Below are positions 13,443 through 32,410 of a stretch of DNA of 39,118 nt, one piece after another. Where the stretch lies: assembly GCA_017503545.1 (NCBI GenBank), contig JAFVSW010000122.1, positions 1 to 39,118 of the forward strand, given 5' to 3'. Made by a program: the position numbers and the translations under genes. Source of the DNA: Lentisphaeria bacterium (GTDB taxonomy: Bacteria > Verrucomicrobiota > Lentisphaeria > Victivallales > UBA1829). How positions within the stretch are numbered: the first letter of the stretch is position 1; every line of letters starts with the position of its first letter. Under the pieces are notes generated by a model. It had not been told where the DNA came from. It worked only from the letters and a program-made list of their open reading frames with translations, and did not search any database.

Positions 13443-13479
13443 TTTTCAGGCGTTTTTGAAGACTTTTGAATTTGCCTCA
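13443..13479 (+). repeat. Border motif, copy 2 of 4
   Basis: This copy matches 152-188 at 35 of 37 positions and can form the same loose stem (AGGCG with TGCCT, one G-U pair). It sits in the 209-base gap between two convergent genes. A weak hairpin (AGATC 13383-13387, GATCT 13394-13398) followed by six T may terminate the GH38-like gene. Confidence 0.6.
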
Positions 13480-22717: not shown

Positions 22718-23752
22718 TCAGTTAAAATCTTTTTCCAATGCGGTTTTCCATTGGAACTGTTCCGCTTTGCGCGCGAATTCATCCAGTGACCGGATCAACT
22801 GGACGGATGGGGGGATCGTTTGCAGCATTTTTTTCAATTCGTTCTGCAATGCTGCCGATTCTTTTTTGTATTTATCCGGTACTTGAGTCGCTTTGATAAT
22901 GTCCCGGACTTTTTTCTGTTGTCCGGTAAGCATGGTATTCAACGTGGTTTGTTGTACACCTTTACCCATATTGTATAATACCTGTTGATCCAGTGCCAGA
23001 CACCAGGGCGGAGTTACTTTTTTATTCAGTTCCGCCGCCAGTTCCTGCATATTGATCTGCTTGCCTTCTTCCATGAAACAGAGAAAACCGAAATTGGAGG
23101 TCGCCGCGTAGTTTCCTCCGGGGGATGAGGTTGTCCCGATAAAACTGCCGGTCCCCCAGGCGTAACGCACATGACAGAAAGTCCAGATATCCCCGGACTT
23201 TGCTTTTTTGCCTAATGCTTCCCACGGCCAGAAGGTTTCCACGTACCAGGCATTTTTGCCGATTTTTACTTTGACTTCCCAGCCGTCCGCATTCCAATCG
23301 TTCCGGATCACGGCTCCATCAATGCGCCAGATATCCATCATGGTTCCGATGGCGTTGACAACAAATTTGCGCCATCCGATACCGGCGGCATCGGAGTCAA
23401 AGTAAATTTCTGTGCAGTCATCCCGCCAGAGTTCGCCGTCATCCCGTTCCGTTACAGTGATACGCAGATTTTTGATATTGTTGTCATAATGTGTGATTCC
23501 CATGTATAATCCCTGTGGAGTATAAACCATCCGGAAGGAATTTTTCAATTTACCGGGCCCGGGATTGGGTTTGAAATATTCGTAAGAGGATGTATACTCC
23601 ATTGCATTTTTCCAGCATGGATCGTTAAGATCTCCATCCAGAACGGGTGCGGCAGCTGCCGGTTTGACGCAATAAAACGAGACTTCCCGCATATTGGCAT
23701 AAAGAGCCGTAGTCATGCACAATAGAAGTCCGGCACAAGACCAGAGTTTCAT
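22718..23752 (-). CDS. Secreted CBM9-like carbohydrate-binding protein
   Basis: This protein has 344 residues. After the signal peptide (MKLWSCAGLLLCMTTALYA) is a CBM9/DOMON-like beta sandwich (about residues 25-225), with the family pattern PVLDGDLNDPCWKNA, LWRDDCTEIYFD and WYVETFWPWEAL. The C-terminal 110 residues are helical and charged. The ATG at 23752 is chosen, since AAGGA lies 10 bases upstream and it yields a clean signal peptide; an in-frame ATG 20 codons earlier would spoil it. It likely binds glycan fragments for the GH42-like protein encoded next. Confidence 0.85.
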   Translation of the reverse strand: MKLWSCAGLLLCMTTALYANMREVSFYCVKPAAAAPVLDGDLNDPCWKNAMEYTSSYEYFKPNPGPGKLKNSFRMVYTPQGLYMGITHYDNNIKNLRITVTERDDGELWRDDCTEIYFDSDAAGIGWRKFVVNAIGTMMDIWRIDGAVIRNDWNADGWEVKVKIGKNAWYVETFWPWEALGKKAKSGDIWTFCHVRYAWGTGSFIGTTSSPGGNYAATSNFGFLCFMEEGKQINMQELAAELNKKVTPPWCLALDQQVLYNMGKGVQQTTLNTMLTGQQKKVRDIIKATQVPDKYKKESAALQNELKKMLQTIPPSVQLIRSLDEFARKAEQFQWKTALEKDFN

Positions 23753-23803
23753 AATCTGTTTTTCCTTCTGTTGAGTTTTGTTATGTTTTATGATATAGCG
23801 GAT

Positions 23804-23831
23804 AAAATACACCTTTTTCTGAAAAAATCAA
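23804..23831 (-). promoter_or_regulatory. Promoter of the CBM9/GH42-like operon
   Basis: On the minus strand TTGATT (23826-23831) and TATTTT (23804-23809) are spaced by 16 bases, about 55 bases before the start codon. Confidence 0.5.
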
Positions 23832-23858: not shown

Positions 23859-23966
23859 TTCTGTTGTGTGACGACCCGGCTTGTCAATTCTGCCGCCGTT
23901 ATTAAAAGATGCGGATGCAATTTTTAACGTTTTTCAGGTATTTTTTAAGACTTTGAAATTACCTCT
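23859..23966 (+). repeat. 108-bp unit, copy A (copy 3 of the border motif)
   Basis: This stretch matches 32303-32410 at 105 of 108 positions, with the first 80 bases identical, and the similarity stops sharply at both ends. In the other copy the first 47 bases are the last codons and stop of the AAC(3)-fusion gene; here there is no gene around them. The unit ends with the border motif (from 23931), where AGGTA can pair with TACCT. It lies between two divergent promoters. Confidence 0.9.
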
Positions 23967-24050: not shown

Positions 24051-24100
24051 TTGAAATTGTGATCTTCCCATGCTATTTTAAATGGTAAACACGTTTACCA
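24051..24100 (+). promoter_or_regulatory. Promoter and LacI-type operator
   Basis: TTGAAA (24051-24056), 17 bases, then TATTTT (24074-24079). The dyad TGGTAAAC-N2-GTTTACCA (24083-24100) covers the expected start of transcription. It is a typical LacI-family operator and points to autorepression by the gene that follows. Confidence 0.8.
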
Positions 24101-24112
24101 TAGGAGAATAAA

Positions 24113-25156
24113 GTGAAAGAAAGAGCTTCGATCCGTGATGTTGCAAAAATGGCAGGGGTGAGTATAACCACCGTGAGTTTTGTACTCAAAGGTATTGGGC
24201 GCGTCTCGCAGGATACCATTCGCCGGGTATGGGATTGCGTCAATGAATTGGGTTATACTCCGAATCCTTATGTAAATAAGATTCTCAATAAAGAGAATTT
24301 TGAACATAAAAAGACAAATCTGTTGATGCGAGTGTTTTTTCACCCCAGTGATGTGGTGGTGGATAATACCATATTAAACAATTATATCGGCAATTTTGAG
24401 ACTGCCTGTGCAAAATATGATTATTCCGGTACCAGTTATGCTTATCGTGATGTTCTCGGGTTCCGGAGCAAACTTCTTTTGAACGATCTTGTCGATGGCG
24501 TTGTATTGGGGGTGCCCCACAAGAATATTCTGGAAGTGGTACGGAAACGTGTTCCCTGCGTGCTGACCGGGGTGGATGCTGATCCGGATGTTGTTTCCAT
24601 GCCGGTGATCCATTTTGATTATGAAAATGCTTTCAACCGTATTTTTTCCGCATTTGCCAAAAAAAATATGACCGGTTCCCTTGCTATATTCCGCGGTTTT
24701 GGGGAATTGAGTCTGGATGATTCCCTTGTTCACGATTATTCCATTGAATATTTGAAACGTCCTGCGGAGAAAAACAAAATACCTTTCCGGAAATCTCATC
24801 TTTTCAATGTGGAGGCAGATGCAAAAAACAACGCGACCAAATTGGAGGAAATTGCAGATAAAGCCTTCCATCTGATCCGGGAAGAAGGCGTAAGATTTAT
24901 TGCTTTGCACTTGATTACATCTCTGTCGGAATTGAAAGTTCTTCTGGAAAAAAGAGGGATCCGTTTCCCTGAGGAAGCCGTGCTTTTAGGTGTAAATCAC
25001 GTTTCATCGAAATCAACAGGAATTGTGGAAGCGGTGCACGATATTCCGGCACTTATGGAAAAAGCGGTGGAAGTGCTTTTGCGGTGTATGGATGGGAAAG
25101 AAAAGAAAAACAAGAAATATTGGGTCGAATGTAAAACCGATGTAGACAATATTTAA
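24113..25156 (+). CDS. LacI-family transcriptional regulator
   Basis: This 347-residue repressor has the N-terminal LacI helix-turn-helix and hinge (ASIRDVAKMAGVSITTVSFV, then ELGYTPNPYVNKIL) and a periplasmic-binding-protein-like sensor domain (about residues 65-340). It starts with GTG, with AGGAG 6 bases upstream; no better ATG is available that keeps the HTH. It is expected to bind the dyad just before it. Its position between the CBM9/GH42-like operon and the pseudopilin/DUF4838 genes suggests sugar-responsive control of one or both, but no second copy of the operator was found. Confidence 0.92.
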   Translation: MKERASIRDVAKMAGVSITTVSFVLKGIGRVSQDTIRRVWDCVNELGYTPNPYVNKILNKENFEHKKTNLLMRVFFHPSDVVVDNTILNNYIGNFETACAKYDYSGTSYAYRDVLGFRSKLLLNDLVDGVVLGVPHKNILEVVRKRVPCVLTGVDADPDVVSMPVIHFDYENAFNRIFSAFAKKNMTGSLAIFRGFGELSLDDSLVHDYSIEYLKRPAEKNKIPFRKSHLFNVEADAKNNATKLEEIADKAFHLIREEGVRFIALHLITSLSELKVLLEKRGIRFPEEAVLLGVNHVSSKSTGIVEAVHDIPALMEKAVEVLLRCMDGKEKKNKKYWVECKTDVDNI

Positions 25157-25202
25157 CAACTTTTTATAATTACCACAAAGTAGAAAAGGAAAGGATCAAG
25201 TT

Positions 25203-26129
25203 ATGAAGAAAATGCAGTCTGGTAATGTGGCTTGTGCAAGAGTTGTCATGAAGAAAACTTTTACACTCATCGAATTGTTGGTGAGTGCTGCTTGTAAAAT
25301 TAGGGTTTTGCCGTTTTATTACCTCAAAATAATTTATAAAAACGACACATCCTTACGCCCGATAGGGCGCACTTCACGCATTTTTGACAGCGGTCAAAAA
25401 TGCTCTTCACACCTTCACATCTTCACTCAATCAGCGTTCACGCTGATTGAACTTCTGGTGGTCATTGCCATCATTGCCATTCTGGCAGCGATGCTTCTGC
25501 CAGCGTTGAGCAGTGTCAAGGAGAAAGGCCGGTCGATCACCTGTACGAATAACTTGAAACAGGCTGCTATTCTGGCGGCATCTTACGAGAGAGATTTCAA
25601 TGACTGGATCTTACCGGTTGTGGTGCAGAATATGGCAAGACGTGGATACTGGGATACCGGTTGGCGGTATAACATGATACAATATTTCCCTGCGGGAAGA
25701 GCCAGAACCGAAGCCGGTTCCAATCCATATTTCCGTTGTCCTTCGGATCCCAATCCCATGCTTTTTGCAACCTCAAAGGCGAATCTGAAAAGTTCTTATG
25801 GATATTCCGTGTCACTTGGGGATTATTACTGTCAGGTACAGTACAGCAAACCGAACGACCAATATTACAAGTTCAAAAAGCTCAAAAACATCATGTATCC
25901 TTCCAGAGTTGCCAGAATGGCTGACCTTAAAGGTCAAGATGCAGACAATACCATGCAGCATTTCCGCTGGCTTTTTCATGATTTTGGAGCAGGCGGCTTT
26001 TTGAAATACCGTCATTCCCAGAGAGCCAATTTTCTTCATGTGGATGGAAGCACCAAGGCGTATTCCTATGGCGATGTGAATTCATCTGCGAATAAAAAAT
26101 ATCTTATGTTGCAGGCCGGTCTTAAATAA
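25203..26129 (+). CDS. Type II secretion-like pseudopilin with doubled leader
   Basis: This 308-residue protein carries two prepilin leader motifs. The first, [11 protein letters not shown] (F20), is not followed by the usual hydrophobic helix but by about 50 unrelated residues ([19 protein letters not shown] and on). The second, [16 protein letters not shown] (F79), has the full helix, a continuing pilin body, and near the end the H-X9-DG motif ([12 protein letters not shown]). Proteins of this kind are abundant in Lentisphaerota and Planctomycetota; prepilin peptidase would cleave before F. The reading frame is open throughout. Residue -1 is Thr in the first motif and Ala in the second, so the second looks the more usable site. 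Starts at M1 or M16 are both possible; GGAAAGGA precedes M1. Confidence 0.88.
25284..25436 (+). mobile_element. In-frame insert with hairpins inside the pseudopilin leader
   Basis: About 51 codons lie between the two FTLIELLV motifs. They contain a CGCCC/GGGCG hairpin (25356-25369), a perfect 11-bp hairpin (GCATTTTTGAC, loop AGCG, 25378-25403), three CTTCAC-type short repeats (25404-25426), and a perfect 10-bp hairpin (TCAATCAGCG, loop TTCA, 25427-25450) whose right arm enters the second leader motif. No stop interrupts it. I infer a small inserted element without its own protein; transposition has not been shown. Confidence 0.6.
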
Positions 26130-26190
26130 ACCGTGAACGTCTTGTTTTTTATAACCGTTTTTACACACAATTATACAGAAAGGAATCATT

Positions 26191-28521
26191 ATGAAACGGA
26201 ATTATTGTCTGTTTTTCCTTCTTGGATGCCTGTTCTTTGCAGCAAGCCTTCATGGGGAGATCATTCTTACCAATAAGGGTAAAAGCTCTTATTCCATTCT
26301 TTTGCCTCCTGAAGCGACTCCTATGGAACAGCTTGCCGCAAGAGAACTGAAAACTTACCTGAAAAAGAGTACCGGTGCCGATCTTGCCATTGTGGAAAAG
26401 GCAGGGAAAAACAATATCCGCCTTGCCCGGAATAAAAAACTGGGCAGAGATGAGTCCCGGGTCAGTATCAACGGCAAAGAACTTCTTCTGGAAGGGGGAG
26501 ATGAATGGGGTGTAATTTACAGTGTTTATGCCTTCCTTGAAAATCAGCTCGGGATTCGTTGGTTTACTCCTTACGGGGACGAAAAAGTTCCCAAATATGA
26601 GACTCTGAAACTGGATTTCAAGGCATACAAAGAACAGCCTGCACTGGAAATGCGCGGTATGGTCGGTTCTGAATATTACAGACATAAAGATGCTTCCATA
26701 TTCTTTTTCCGGAACCGTCTCAATATGGGGTATAATATGCGTATCAAAGCATATCCGGGAACCAAGCCGCGCTGGTTTTATAACGGCTATGCCTGCCACA
26801 CATTCTTCTATTATATTCCTCCGGCAAAAGGGATTTACCCGCAGAATCTCAAATTCAAAGAGGAAAAATATTACTTCAAGAGCAATCCCGAATTCTTCTC
26901 TATGGATAAAAGTGGACAGCGGGTTTATACGCTTCAGTTGTGCTTCAGCAATAAAGCATTGCGCAAAGAGTTCACAAGACGGTTTGAAGAATACCTTTCT
27001 CTCTCCGGGAAAAAAGGTATTTATACGATCAGTGCGCAGGACTGGCCCGGCTCCTTCTGTTATTGTCCGGATTGTAAAACTCTGGAAAAAAAATATCAGT
27101 GTAATGTGGGACCTCTAATGGATTACCTGATTGAACTTTGCAGCCTGACGGAGAAAAAATACCCTCAAATTCTGATCAAGACATCCGCTTACCGGAAAGA
27201 TCAGAGCGAAAAGCCTCCGGTTCTTGCCCCGGGTAAAAAACTGCCCCGGCAGCTTCTTATCGACTTCGCTCCCATTGATGACGATTTCACCAAGTCTATC
27301 ACCCATAAAAATAATATGGGAACGTATAAGAATCTCAAGGATTACTGTAAAATTGCCAATCGCGTTCTTTTGTACCATTGGCCGATCGTTTATGGCGGCG
27401 GTTATCCATTCGGCGGTTTCTATCGGGTGGCAGAAGATACCAAAATAGCTTATCAAGCCGGACTCAAAGCTGCATTCTATGAACATAATGTGGGGACGAT
27501 GTATGGTTGGAATACGGTAGACCTGATGACCTATCTTATTTTGAAACTGTATCAGAAACCGGATCTGGATTATAAAAAGGTCATCCGGGAATTTTGCGAA
27601 TTTTATTATGGCAATGTTGCAGAAGAAATGCTTTCTTATATTCAGGATTTGGAAGATATTTCTGCAAATAATCCCTCTTTCCATCCGTGGAATGGCGGCA
27701 TTGTTCCCGCTGTTACCGCAGAGAAAAATCTGATTAAATGGACCAAACTTTTCAATGCGATGGAGAAAAAATGTGCATCCGATTCGGTGGTGTTGAAACG
27801 GGTCAAAGATGTGAGAAATCGGCTGGATGTCGCAGTGATGTCATTCAATTTTATGACATTGCATAAGAAATATCCCGATATCATTCCCCCGGCAGATAAG
27901 CTGATGGCATCCATCAAGGCGGGGATCGCAGACTCCATGAAACGCCGGTTCCCGGATTATGCGCGGAGTTTCCGTGACATCTGGTACAAACGCGCACTGG
28001 CAGGATTGGCAGATCTCTATATGGGGGCGACTGTCACTCCGAAACCTTTAAGTCCGGAACTGGAAAAACTCCCCAAAAAATATGTACGTCAGACCTATGC
28101 CGTTGTGACGAATAAATGTCCCCTTGTCAAAGATCCGGATGCCGGTTTCGGACAGGCTATCTATGATTATAAGATCAAAAAGGCACAAGTTCCCTTTTAT
28201 TGCGGGATCTATGATACGGGAAGAAAAAAACGCCTTGTTACAAAAGGGATCAAGGCATCCGAGATCGTACCGGATAAATATCATCTTTATAAACTGGGTT
28301 CATTCCCCATTCCGGAAAATGCTCAAATCTTTACGGGCAGTACCTGGATCTGTTCGATCTCACTCAAAAAGTTTTTCCGCATCGGCGAAGCCATGGATAA
28401 AAAATATGATATTTATATTTCCATGAAATTTGAAGGCAAAGGCTATCATAAGGATAGTAAAAAAGATGTGGACAGAGTCTACATTGACCGCGCCGTAGTA
28501 GTGGAAAATCCAGAGAAGTAA
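26191..28521 (+). CDS. Secreted DUF4838-family protein
   Basis: This 776-residue protein has a signal peptide (MKRNYCLFFLLGCLFFAASLHG), an N-terminal alpha/beta domain like that of alpha-glucuronidases (EQLAARELKTYLKKSTGADL, about residues 30-130) and a DUF4838 TIM-barrel-like region (about residues 150-450), with conserved-looking SAQDWPGSFCYCPDCK and YHWPIVYGGGYPFGG. The C-terminal third is helical, then beta-rich. DUF4838 proteins are common in glycan-degradation loci and thought to be glycosidase-like; the activity is not established. AAAGGA lies 6 bases before the start. It is followed within 60 bases by a hydrolase gene. Confidence 0.85.
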   Translation: MKRNYCLFFLLGCLFFAASLHGEIILTNKGKSSYSILLPPEATPMEQLAARELKTYLKKSTGADLAIVEKAGKNNIRLARNKKLGRDESRVSINGKELLLEGGDEWGVIYSVYAFLENQLGIRWFTPYGDEKVPKYETLKLDFKAYKEQPALEMRGMVGSEYYRHKDASIFFFRNRLNMGYNMRIKAYPGTKPRWFYNGYACHTFFYYIPPAKGIYPQNLKFKEEKYYFKSNPEFFSMDKSGQRVYTLQLCFSNKALRKEFTRRFEEYLSLSGKKGIYTISAQDWPGSFCYCPDCKTLEKKYQCNVGPLMDYLIELCSLTEKKYPQILIKTSAYRKDQSEKPPVLAPGKKLPRQLLIDFAPIDDDFTKSITHKNNMGTYKNLKDYCKIANRVLLYHWPIVYGGGYPFGGFYRVAEDTKIAYQAGLKAAFYEHNVGTMYGWNTVDLMTYLILKLYQKPDLDYKKVIREFCEFYYGNVAEEMLSYIQDLEDISANNPSFHPWNGGIVPAVTAEKNLIKWTKLFNAMEKKCASDSVVLKRVKDVRNRLDVAVMSFNFMTLHKKYPDIIPPADKLMASIKAGIADSMKRRFPDYARSFRDIWYKRALAGLADLYMGATVTPKPLSPELEKLPKKYVRQTYAVVTNKCPLVKDPDAGFGQAIYDYKIKKAQVPFYCGIYDTGRKKRLVTKGIKASEIVPDKYHLYKLGSFPIPENAQIFTGSTWICSISLKKFFRIGEAMDKKYDIYISMKFEGKGYHKDSKKDVDRVYIDRAVVVENPEK

Positions 28522-28527
28522 AAATAT

Positions 28528-28556
28528 CTCCCCGCCGGTTTGCAATATGCGGGGAG
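28528..28556 (+). repeat. Intercistronic hairpin
   Basis: CTCCCCGC and GCGGGGAG form a perfect 8-bp stem with a 13-base loop, starting 7 bases past the DUF4838 gene and ending 5 bases before the next gene's AAAGGA. There is no T-run, so it looks less like a terminator than an mRNA-stabilising or attenuating structure. Confidence 0.6.
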
Positions 28557-28572
28557 AAAGAAAGGAATCAAA

Positions 28573-29871
28573 ATGAAAATCGCCTGGTTCAAAAAAAATA
28601 TTTCACCTGAAATCGGTGCATTTATTGCCGGATACAGTCTGAATGATAAATCGGTTGCAAAACTTGACGACCTTTATGCCTGCGGTATGTGTGCCGATGA
28701 CGGAACGAACAAAATCCTGCTGATCAGTCTTGATTTGATCGGTTTGGATGGCTGGTATATCCGGAAAATACGTAAGGCATGTGCCGATATCCTGCACATC
28801 CCGGAACATGCCGTCATGCTTTCCTGTACTCATACCCATACCGGACCGGAAAGCAGAAGTATTGCCGGACATCCGGAGAAGGTTCATACCGCATATCTGG
28901 AAAAGTTGGAAACGACTTTGATCGATGCTGTTGCCGGATTGACGGATTTCCGTGAATGTGAAGTATCATTTTATTCCTGTAAATGTGATGAAAACCGTAA
29001 TCGCCGTTATGTTTCCGGGGATAATCGTGCCACATTTACCCCGCATCGCAGAGAAGTCCTGCCCGGCGCAACGGAATTTGCTGATCAGGAGTTGGGCGCG
29101 ATCTATTTCTATGATGCCGCAACGAAACTGCCCGTTTATGCCATCGGTAATTATGCGGCACACCCGCTGGCGGGACATGCTCCCGGTTTGGGCGGTTTGC
29201 GTATTTCCGCCGATTATCCCGGCGCATTCCGGAACTATGTGACATCCAACACCGGCGCGGAAACCATGTTTGTTTCCGGTGCTGCCGGTGATTTGGTTCC
29301 CAAAGAAGATGAGTTGGGTGAGGATGCCATGCGTGGAATGGGGGTCCGGCTGGGAAAAGAATTCATCGGCGGTATGATCGAATCCAGACGGAATCCGCGG
29401 CGTTATGGTCTGCCGGATGCCAAAGTCGGTTCCTGCATCAAGCCGTTCAAAGTCCGTTTGCGCAAACATTATGCCAATCAGGCAGAACGTATGCCGGAAG
29501 AATATCTGGGCAGCGATGATGTGACTCTGGAAATCCAGTGTATTTCCATCGGCGATGTGTGCTTTGTCGGTGTACCCGGTGAATTATGTTGCGAATTGGG
29601 GCAGGAGATCAAGTGGCACAGTCCGTTCCGCCGCACGTTTATTGCATACAGTGCAACTGCTTATATCTGCTATATCGTACCGGCGAATTTTCTGGTTTCC
29701 GGCGGTTATGAACCAATTTGCCAATGCTTTACTGCAAAAGGCGGGTTGACATTGCTGAATACAGCGGTGGATGCAATGTTTGATTTGCACGAAACGATTT
29801 ACCCGTCGGAAGGCGAACCCTATCCGGATGGATGCTTCGGCGGTGTTGTCAACATTCTCCCGAATCGTTGA
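28573..29871 (+). CDS. Neutral/alkaline ceramidase-like hydrolase
   Basis: This 432-residue protein resembles the N-terminal catalytic domain of neutral ceramidases. The zinc-site motif SCTHTHTGPE is present (about residue 85), as are NYAAHPLAGH and FVSGAAGDLVPKED. True neutral ceramidases are longer, with a C-terminal immunoglobulin-like domain that is absent here. Many bacterial relatives of this size occur in carbohydrate loci and have no known substrate, so ceramide cleavage is doubtful. No signal peptide is seen. The ATG at 28573 has AAAGGA 7 bases upstream and is preferred to an in-frame ATG at 28540 inside the hairpin. Confidence 0.83.
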   Translation: MKIAWFKKNISPEIGAFIAGYSLNDKSVAKLDDLYACGMCADDGTNKILLISLDLIGLDGWYIRKIRKACADILHIPEHAVMLSCTHTHTGPESRSIAGHPEKVHTAYLEKLETTLIDAVAGLTDFRECEVSFYSCKCDENRNRRYVSGDNRATFTPHRREVLPGATEFADQELGAIYFYDAATKLPVYAIGNYAAHPLAGHAPGLGGLRISADYPGAFRNYVTSNTGAETMFVSGAAGDLVPKEDELGEDAMRGMGVRLGKEFIGGMIESRRNPRRYGLPDAKVGSCIKPFKVRLRKHYANQAERMPEEYLGSDDVTLEIQCISIGDVCFVGVPGELCCELGQEIKWHSPFRRTFIAYSATAYICYIVPANFLVSGGYEPICQCFTAKGGLTLLNTAVDAMFDLHETIYPSEGEPYPDGCFGGVVNILPNR

Positions 29872-29904
29872 GTATGAAATTCCGCCGATTTTGAAATAGA
29901 TGGA

Positions 29905-32349
29905 ATGATAAAAAAGTCAGCCCCGGTGACAGAGATGGAAGAATTGTTTTACAAAATACGTAATCAAATCAATGCGGATGATCTGGTTAATAAAATTGCA
30001 GTCCTGTGTAAGATTGAACAGGGGCAGACATTCCGGCATTATCATCAGGCAGCAGATCATGTTTATCGGTTGTTGTGTGATGCTGGTATCCCCAATGTGG
30101 AAAAACTCGCTTTTCCCGCAGATGGAAAAACTGTATACGAAGATCACAGGATGCCTTTGGCGTGGGAGGCAACGATCGGGAAACTGACCTTGTGTAACAA
30201 TGCACATACCGTTGCCGCCGATTTTCAGAAACATCCGTTTCATCTGATCAAAGGTTCCACCGCAACAGAGCCGGGCGGGGAAATTGTGCGGATCATTACC
30301 GAACAGCAATTCCTTGCCGGGGAATCACCGGAAAATGCCCTTGTGATGCTGGAAACAGATACCTGCCCGGAAGCCCGGGTGTTGACTCCTGTTCTGGATC
30401 AGGGCGGGCGTGGGATCATTACTGATTTTCTTCCGGGGCGTTATGATGATCCCGATGCACTTCCCTGGGTATCATCATGCACAGAAGGAACCCATTGTCA
30501 TGTGCAGAGGGAAGATCGTGATTTTATCGGTTTTACCGTGAATTTGCGGATGGGGTCTTTGATACGACAGCAGGCTACTCACGGAAAATTAACGGCTGAA
30601 ATCGAATGTGACGGACGCCGGTATGAAGGTGTTTTACCCGTCGTGACTGCACTTATTCCCGGTCGGCGTGAAGAAGAAGTGTGGCTGATGGCACATCTTT
30701 TTGAACCGTTGCCGGATCATAATTCCACAGGCGTGATTGCGGGGATCGAGGTTGCCCGGCAGATCATGAAAATGGGAGTGCCGGAATATTCCCTGCGGTT
30801 GATCTTTACAATGAAACAATGTGGATATGCCGCGTTCCATAACCAGTTTCGCGGTAAGGTGATCGGTGGTTCCAATATCGACAGCCTGCCGTCCGGAAAA
30901 GATGATATCTGCAGAATGATTCCACCCATATCCGTTGTTCCGTTTCATGGCATCAATATCATGAAACGAATGACGGAAGAATTGAAGGATATTTTGTCGT
31001 GTGTACCGGATAAACCGGCGTGTCCGGATGATATGGCATTCTCCGATTCCACTACCTGTATTCCGACGGTTTGGTTCCGGAGAGGTGTTGATAAAAACAA
31101 ATCTGCACCGTCCTGTTCTCCGGATCCTGATACCGCAGCGGCTTATACTGCATTGGAAACTTTATGGTTTGCTGAAACATTGTTTTATACCGGAACTCCG
31201 GCAGAACTCCCTGCATTGGAATTTAAAACGGTATCCTCGCCCTGGCGCGATCATGCAAAGCAACAGGTTTTTGCCCGGGCTCAAACCGGATTCCCCCGGG
31301 ATCTGTGCCGTGTCCCGAAAGCGGAGCGGATCCGTTTGCCGGATCATGTTATTTACGGCCCCATGGCATCCCTGCTTGCCCGCATGGACGGGGCAAAAAA
31401 TATGGCTCAAATTATTCAGGAAACAGAGGCGGATCTCCAGGTCACTCTTTCTGATTTTCAAATTAGAAAATACTTGAATGCAATCAATTATCTTGCGGCT
31501 TGGGGGTATCTGACCGTTATCCGCCGCAATGTGTTGACAAGAGAAATGTTGGCTGCTGCCCTTGCAGAATTGGGTGTCAAACGCGGTGATGTGCTGCTGG
31601 TTCACTCCGCCGTTTCCAAGTGGGGATATGTGGATGGCGGAGCGCAAACGATCATCCATGCGGTGATGGATGTGGTCGGACCGGATGGTGCCGCTATGTT
31701 TCCCGCATTTACCATGCCTTATATTTATTTGGGCGAATCCCTTAACCGGGGATGGGGATATCGCCCCTTTGATTCCGCCGATCCTTCTCAGATATGGACC
31801 GGTGCGGTTCCCCGTACCCTTTTGGAAAAGTTTCCGGCTGCCAAACGCAGTAAACATGTGACCCATTCCTGGGGTGGATTGGGTGCAAAAGCCGCAGAAT
31901 GTCTGGCGGAACATGGTCCATACGATCCGCCGACATCGTTAAATTCCCCCATTGGGAAAGCATTGGAAAAGAATGGTAAAGTGCTTTATTTGGGGAATGG
32001 GCTGGCATCGTCTACATTCTTGCATTTTATAGAAACGGTCAATCATGCGCCATATCTTCTGCCCGGAGTTTGCCGTGTAAAAAATCCGGATGGAACACTG
32101 CGGACAGTTCTGATCGAAGAACATTTGCCCGGACACCGGGATTTTTATCGTGAGGATGCGGAAAACTGCAAATTTTACCGTCGTGCAGTTCAGGAAGGAT
32201 TGAAAATCGAAGAAGTCGCTTTCGGTATGGGGAAAATACAGTTGATCGAATTGCGTGAATTTTATGATATTTCTATGAAATTGTGGAAAGAAGACCCCCG
32301 TATTCTGTTGTGTGACGACCCGGCTTGTCAATTCTGCCGCCGTTATTAA
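29905..32349 (+). CDS. Fusion: M28/DUF4910-like domain, winged helix, AAC(3)-like acetyltransferase
   Basis: This 814-residue protein has three parts. Residues of about 1-425 resemble M28/DUF4910 aminopeptidases: MAHLFEPLPDHNSTG (about residue 260) parallels the metal-binding H...DDNASG region. The place where a Glu-Glu pair is expected reads TMKQCGY (about residue 301), so catalysis there may be lost. Residues of about 430-540 look like a winged helix. Residues 545-800 are clearly AAC(3)-like: LLVHSAVSKWGYVDGG, FDSADPSQIWTGAVPRTL, HVTHSWGGLGAKA and SPIGKALEKNGKVLYLGN. A cysteine tail (CDDPACQFC) ends it. The AAC(3) fold acetylates amino groups using acetyl-CoA; many members are not resistance enzymes. 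No strong ribosome site; an ATG at 29935 is an alternative. Confidence 0.8.
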   Translation: MIKKSAPVTEMEELFYKIRNQINADDLVNKIAVLCKIEQGQTFRHYHQAADHVYRLLCDAGIPNVEKLAFPADGKTVYEDHRMPLAWEATIGKLTLCNNAHTVAADFQKHPFHLIKGSTATEPGGEIVRIITEQQFLAGESPENALVMLETDTCPEARVLTPVLDQGGRGIITDFLPGRYDDPDALPWVSSCTEGTHCHVQREDRDFIGFTVNLRMGSLIRQQATHGKLTAEIECDGRRYEGVLPVVTALIPGRREEEVWLMAHLFEPLPDHNSTGVIAGIEVARQIMKMGVPEYSLRLIFTMKQCGYAAFHNQFRGKVIGGSNIDSLPSGKDDICRMIPPISVVPFHGINIMKRMTEELKDILSCVPDKPACPDDMAFSDSTTCIPTVWFRRGVDKNKSAPSCSPDPDTAAAYTALETLWFAETLFYTGTPAELPALEFKTVSSPWRDHAKQQVFARAQTGFPRDLCRVPKAERIRLPDHVIYGPMASLLARMDGAKNMAQIIQETEADLQVTLSDFQIRKYLNAINYLAAWGYLTVIRRNVLTREMLAAALAELGVKRGDVLLVHSAVSKWGYVDGGAQTIIHAVMDVVGPDGAAMFPAFTMPYIYLGESLNRGWGYRPFDSADPSQIWTGAVPRTLLEKFPAAKRSKHVTHSWGGLGAKAAECLAEHGPYDPPTSLNSPIGKALEKNGKVLYLGNGLASSTFLHFIETVNHAPYLLPGVCRVKNPDGTLRTVLIEEHLPGHRDFYREDAENCKFYRRAVQEGLKIEEVAFGMGKIQLIELREFYDISMKLWKEDPRILLCDDPACQFCRRY

Positions 32350-32410
32350 AAGATGCGGATGCAATTTTTAACGTTTTTCAGGCATTTTTAAAGACTTTGA
32401 AATCACCTCT
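32303..32410 (+). repeat. 108-bp unit, copy B (copy 4 of the border motif)
   Basis: This copy matches 23859-23966 at 105 of 108 positions. The first 47 bases encode the cysteine-rich tail and stop of the AAC(3)-fusion protein. The rest runs through the gap and ends 5 bases before the end of the convergent AraC gene. The border motif begins at 32375; its terminal pairing (AGGCA against CACCT) is poorer than in the other copies. Confidence 0.9.

Follow-up and report, generated by a model that had tools for sequence, protein, structure and literature searches.

Two copies of a 108-bp unit

Why does a stretch of 108 bp form the end of a gene at one place in this Lentisphaeria contig and stand alone between two other genes at another? 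The window, by which we mean the whole stretch of DNA analyzed (39,118 nucleotides), had previously been interpreted from its letters only, and this sequence-only reading offered two answers: either the end of the gene was copied recently, or a mobile cassette, the unit itself, came to serve as the 3' end of that gene and gave it a cysteine-rich tail. The features concerned are the following.

23859 to 23966, plus strand: copy A of the unit, standalone and intergenic, identical to 32303 to 32410 at 105 of 108 positions
32303 to 32410, plus strand: copy B of the unit, comprising the end of the fusion gene and its 3' sequence; the presumed source copy, as suggested by the ancestral tail in homologues
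24113 to 32349, plus strand: run of five genes (LacI, prepilin-like, 776-aa gene, 443-aa gene, fusion gene), a putative operon to judge from strand and spacing

Ungapped comparison reproduced both the identity and the coordinates that had been given for the two copies. The match is far beyond chance (E = 8e-47 in the 4.06-Mb genome), and the longest run of exact identity is at most about 76 bases. The nucleotide search called for in the sequence-only reading returned two copies of the unit in the genome, and the unit is absent from the 197 other genomes of the class (198 searched, its own included). Its description as sharp edged with unrelated flanks also holds: anchored alignment of the right flanks scored 0, and between the left flanks there is only a faint similarity with gaps, some 24 bp long (p about 0.01). 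In a search for a gene remnant upstream of copy A, tblastn aligned the sequence through FYDI and a weak match was seen at the DNA level; both alignments vary with gaps and parameters. The left edge, too, is sharp, possibly with some microhomology.

The unit is composite, consisting of about 15 codons and a stop, 8 bp, and then a degenerate miniature inverted-repeat element (MITE) of about 52 bp. The last 37 bases or so are the end of a dispersed genome-wide repeat and match dozens of places, and the right edge of the unit coincides with the MITE terminus to within one base. Copy B is the gene end, and copy A, the one under which the unit had been listed, is the standalone copy. The two are direct repeats 8.4 kb apart that bracket the same-strand run of five genes.

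Copy A lies between a divergent CBM9-like gene (22718 to 23812, minus strand) and the LacI-family gene (24113 to 25156, plus strand), and precedes the latter's likely promoter and operator. It has no usable reading frame, an in-frame stop being present upstream. No terminator was predicted at copy A, the unit folds no better than shuffled sequences, and an Rfam search of the window gave no match. Given the absence of a usable frame and the position upstream of the putative LacI promoter and operator, copy A is most likely a noncoding scar with no evident function. Just 5' of the LacI-family gene, positions 24082 to 24101 (ATGGTAAACACGTTTACCAT) form a 9-bp perfect inverted repeat, which is likely a LacI-type operator for autoregulation.

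The fusion gene and its cysteine-rich tail

29905 to 32349, plus strand: fusion gene, 814 aa, with a C-terminal Antibiotic_NAT/AAC(3) domain at residues 565 to 792
32303 to 32349, plus strand: coding part of copy B, namely two bases, 14 whole codons, and the stop, encoding the cysteine-rich tail LLCDDPACQFCRRY

The coding part had been described as the last 15 codons and stop; the stop stands, and the first of those codons contributes only two bases. The N-terminal part of the fusion protein has no Pfam match. Its C-terminal domain scores above the Pfam cut-off for PF02522 (109.9 bits; cut-off, 25), and its best solved relative is FrbF. The protein falls far under the NCBIfam AAC(3) equivalog cut-offs, so that acetylation of drugs is not implied.

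Matches were found in 19 of the 36 genomes of the bacterial family. The gene is widespread there, often with multiple copies per genome. When the 3' ends of 18 full-length homologues were read, 14 carried a C-x4-C-x2-C tail (e.g., CDDPDCLFC), one a degenerate form, and three none. Those with the tail include a paralogue in the same genome with 64% identity (contig C238), which ends in LLCDDPDCQFCKNF. Since most homologues carry it, the tail is ancestral and older than the unit, which settles the homologue comparison that had been proposed in favor of an old tail. This conserved tail could serve as a metal ligand.

The age of the tail bears directly on the origin of the unit. Delivery of the gene's 3' end, tail included, by a mobile cassette would fit the occurrence of two sharp-edged copies, one of them standalone. 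However, the 14 homologues with the tail lack the noncoding half of the unit, the unit is found at no homologue's 3' end, and no further copies exist at unrelated sites in the genome or the class. We therefore reject the cassette, to which next to no probability can be assigned. The other proposal, recent copying of a gene end, is supported by the retention of the tail in homologues and the restriction of the unit to two copies in one genome. An ancestral tail also implies that the gene would have been the source of the copy and the intergenic region its destination.

A degenerate MITE inside the unit

The notion of a mobile element was nevertheless correct in part: a decayed MITE makes up the noncoding half and right edge of the unit, even though no cassette delivered the tail. 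Members of the MITE family occupy four positions in the window.

152 to 187: member of the MITE family
13443 to 13478: member of the MITE family
23914 to 23965, plus strand: degenerate MITE in copy A, with flanks TGCG/TAAC and no target duplication
32358 to 32409, plus strand: the same degenerate MITE of about 52 bp in copy B, with flanks TGCG/TGCA, a possible target duplication (3 of 4 bases)

The right end of the unit's MITE is a clear family match (E about 1e-7). Its left end, GATGCAATTTTTAACG, lies where it would be expected and shares 12 of 16 bases with the terminal repeat (p about 0.0008), and the layout is that of the 52-bp members L008 1485-1536 and L104 2395-2446. Compared with the family consensus, copies A and B each carry at least one change, and the hairpin folds no better than shuffled sequence. 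In view of the degenerate left end (12/16) and duplication (3/4), the element could also be a mere MITE end fragment.

The MITE family and its probable parent

The family has abrupt ends, GAGG and CCTC, with terminal inverted repeats GAGGYAATTTCAAAAGTC at both ends. Its members are 31 to about 230 bp long, with 165 bp the most frequent length, and their central stem-loop modules are interchangeable. The terminal repeat gave 146 matches per strand with at most two mismatches, about 290 in the 4.06 Mb, against 0 for the reversed control. Many copies are flanked by 4-bp target duplications, such as GAAA/GAAA and ATAA/ATAA. The dispersed elements combine high copy number with a lack of coding capacity and a length below 500 bp, and, judged by their structure, they are MITEs. 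Other genera of the bacterial family (G009 to G011) share these elements at about 90% identity, and 30 of the 198 genomes of the class, other genera and families included, contain the exact terminal repeat. The MITE family was not described in the literature searched, the coverage of which is incomplete, and no paper found there joined Victivallis and MITEs.

The shortest members, at L016 1494-1524 (31 bp), L015 435-468 (34 bp), L107 2353-2392 (40 bp), and L008 1485-1536 (52 bp), amount to little more than two terminal repeats back to back, and several have target duplications. Either such elements are still mobile at this size or they collapsed after insertion. Furthermore, an ATG follows many MITE ends at a distance of 13 to 55 bp, usually with an RBS-like sequence (L021, L024, L034, L049, L050, L096, L102, and others). 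Such copies would belong to 5' untranslated regions, downstream of the promoter and ahead of the start codon, where they could possibly influence expression.

Contigs of this genome (G000) often start or stop inside a MITE, including the window itself at positions 1 to 189, which indicates that the assembly is broken at MITEs. Fragmentation into 353 contigs, many starting or ending in these elements, raises the possibility of an artefact in which two loci were joined via the repeat. Yet the copies of the unit have three internal differences and share at most the 76 or so exact bases mentioned above, whereas a collapsed repeat would be expected to yield identical copies, and we consider such an artefact very improbable.

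In a related genome, an element of 1,390 bp (G086:C12:23963-25352; L112 464-1853) carries two terminal repeats identical to those of the MITEs. It codes for a 377-aa transposase with the domains DUF772 and DDE_Tnp_1, which is nearest to the IS1182 and IS5 models and below the NCBIfam cut-off for both (IS1182 [NF033551], 101.4 bits, cut-off 270; IS5, 77 bits, cut-off 140). Elements homologous to this one, found in other genomes, resemble it at their ends; 4-bp duplications (ATGT/ATGT and ATCC/ATCC) flank at least two of them. Based on the shared ends, the G086 insertion sequence is probably the parent of the MITEs. The genome of the window contains no relative of its transposase at E ≤ 1e-30 and no PF13701 transposase; the one candidate partner is a broken IS5-like copy that lacks the MITE terminal repeats. 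It would appear that the MITEs are now stranded in this genome, the assembly of which is fragmented.

Origin of copy A

We believe that the unit is best explained by a single ectopic copying event. The fusion gene would be old, with its cysteine tail already in place, when a nonautonomous MITE of about 52 bp, whose family is mobilized by an IS1182/IS5-like transposase acting in trans, landed 8 bp past the stop codon and subsequently decayed. The MITE and the 55 bp preceding it would then have been copied once to a site 8.4 kb upstream, between the divergent promoters; the breakpoints would be the MITE terminus on one side and a point inside the gene on the other. The likeliest route would be recombination or template switching begun at a MITE end. 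We infer the direction from the ancestral tail, and the decay history and exact route likewise belong to the reconstruction. On balance, one ectopic copying event from gene end plus MITE to the intergenic region, with an old tail, is probably what happened.

Several points weigh against this explanation, among them the degeneracy of the left end and of the duplication at copy B. The weak resemblance of the left flanks might be the trace of an older, longer duplicate. In addition, all three differences between the copies fall in the MITE half, which could mean that copy A already had its own MITE, although this distribution is not significant (Fisher p = 0.11). The search of relatives revealed no empty site, and the gene neighborhood is not conserved there.

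A real alternative, considerably less likely but not to be dismissed lightly, is tandem duplication of the 8.4-kb run followed by near-total deletion of the upstream copy, the last 108 bp remaining as the scar. It shares the direction from gene to intergenic region and differs in route. In its favor, the direct repeats bracket the run of five genes exactly, and no target duplication is needed. Against this, two events are required, both divergent promoters and their spacing are intact, and the position of the junction, at a MITE terminus, is left to coincidence if the MITE did not supply it.

Transposition itself accounts less well for copy A. The bases bordering the whole repeat there are CCAT and TAAC, that is, without a 4-bp target duplication, which makes clean transposition unlikely. 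Aberrant or one-ended transposition, in which the transposase paired the right end of the MITE with a cryptic left end within the gene and took the gene end along as passenger, would explain why the right edge falls precisely on the end of a transposon, and a transposase with matching ends does exist in relatives. Apart from the missing duplication, however, the left edge has no sequence resembling a terminal inverted repeat, no such transposase occurs in the genome of the window, and the flanks of other MITEs are not duplicated, so that we regard this route as very unlikely. With respect to the last point, none of 12 flanks of six other MITEs searched in the genome was duplicated elsewhere, and the A/B duplication therefore looks like a one-off event.

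Ectopic copying next to a MITE would make the 108-bp duplication fairly ordinary: a suggested gene-end cassette is replaced by a partial duplication beside a transposon remnant, which is a known kind of event. It is conceivable, though we give the idea little credence, that MITE ends in these genomes are preferred breakpoints from which short pieces of adjoining host sequence, gene ends among them, are copied elsewhere. If so, direct repeats like A and B would let the enclosed gene run amplify or vanish by recombination. The more interesting object is the MITE family. As a useful by-product, the analysis uncovered, in a little-studied class of bacteria, a high-copy family together with the insertion sequence that is probably its parent.

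Comparison with known systems

The putative parent resembles IS1182/IS5-type elements in its 1,390-bp length, its DUF772 and DDE_Tnp_1 domains, its terminal repeats, and the 4-bp duplications of its homologues; in contrast to established members, its transposase scores below the family cut-offs, and hence we call it only IS1182/IS5-like. Like prokaryotic MITEs described previously (PMC10969869), the family is short, AT-rich, and noncoding, with terminal inverted repeats and short target duplications, is intergenic and present in high copy number, and has apparently moved in trans. It departs from them in its unusually short minimum of 31 bp, and the copy within the unit in being degenerate with a decayed hairpin. 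Finally, the unit is reminiscent of partial gene duplications that leave gene-end pseudogene fragments, in which a truncated, nonfunctional copy with a few percent divergence lies near an intact parent, except that here one of the breakpoints is a transposon terminus.
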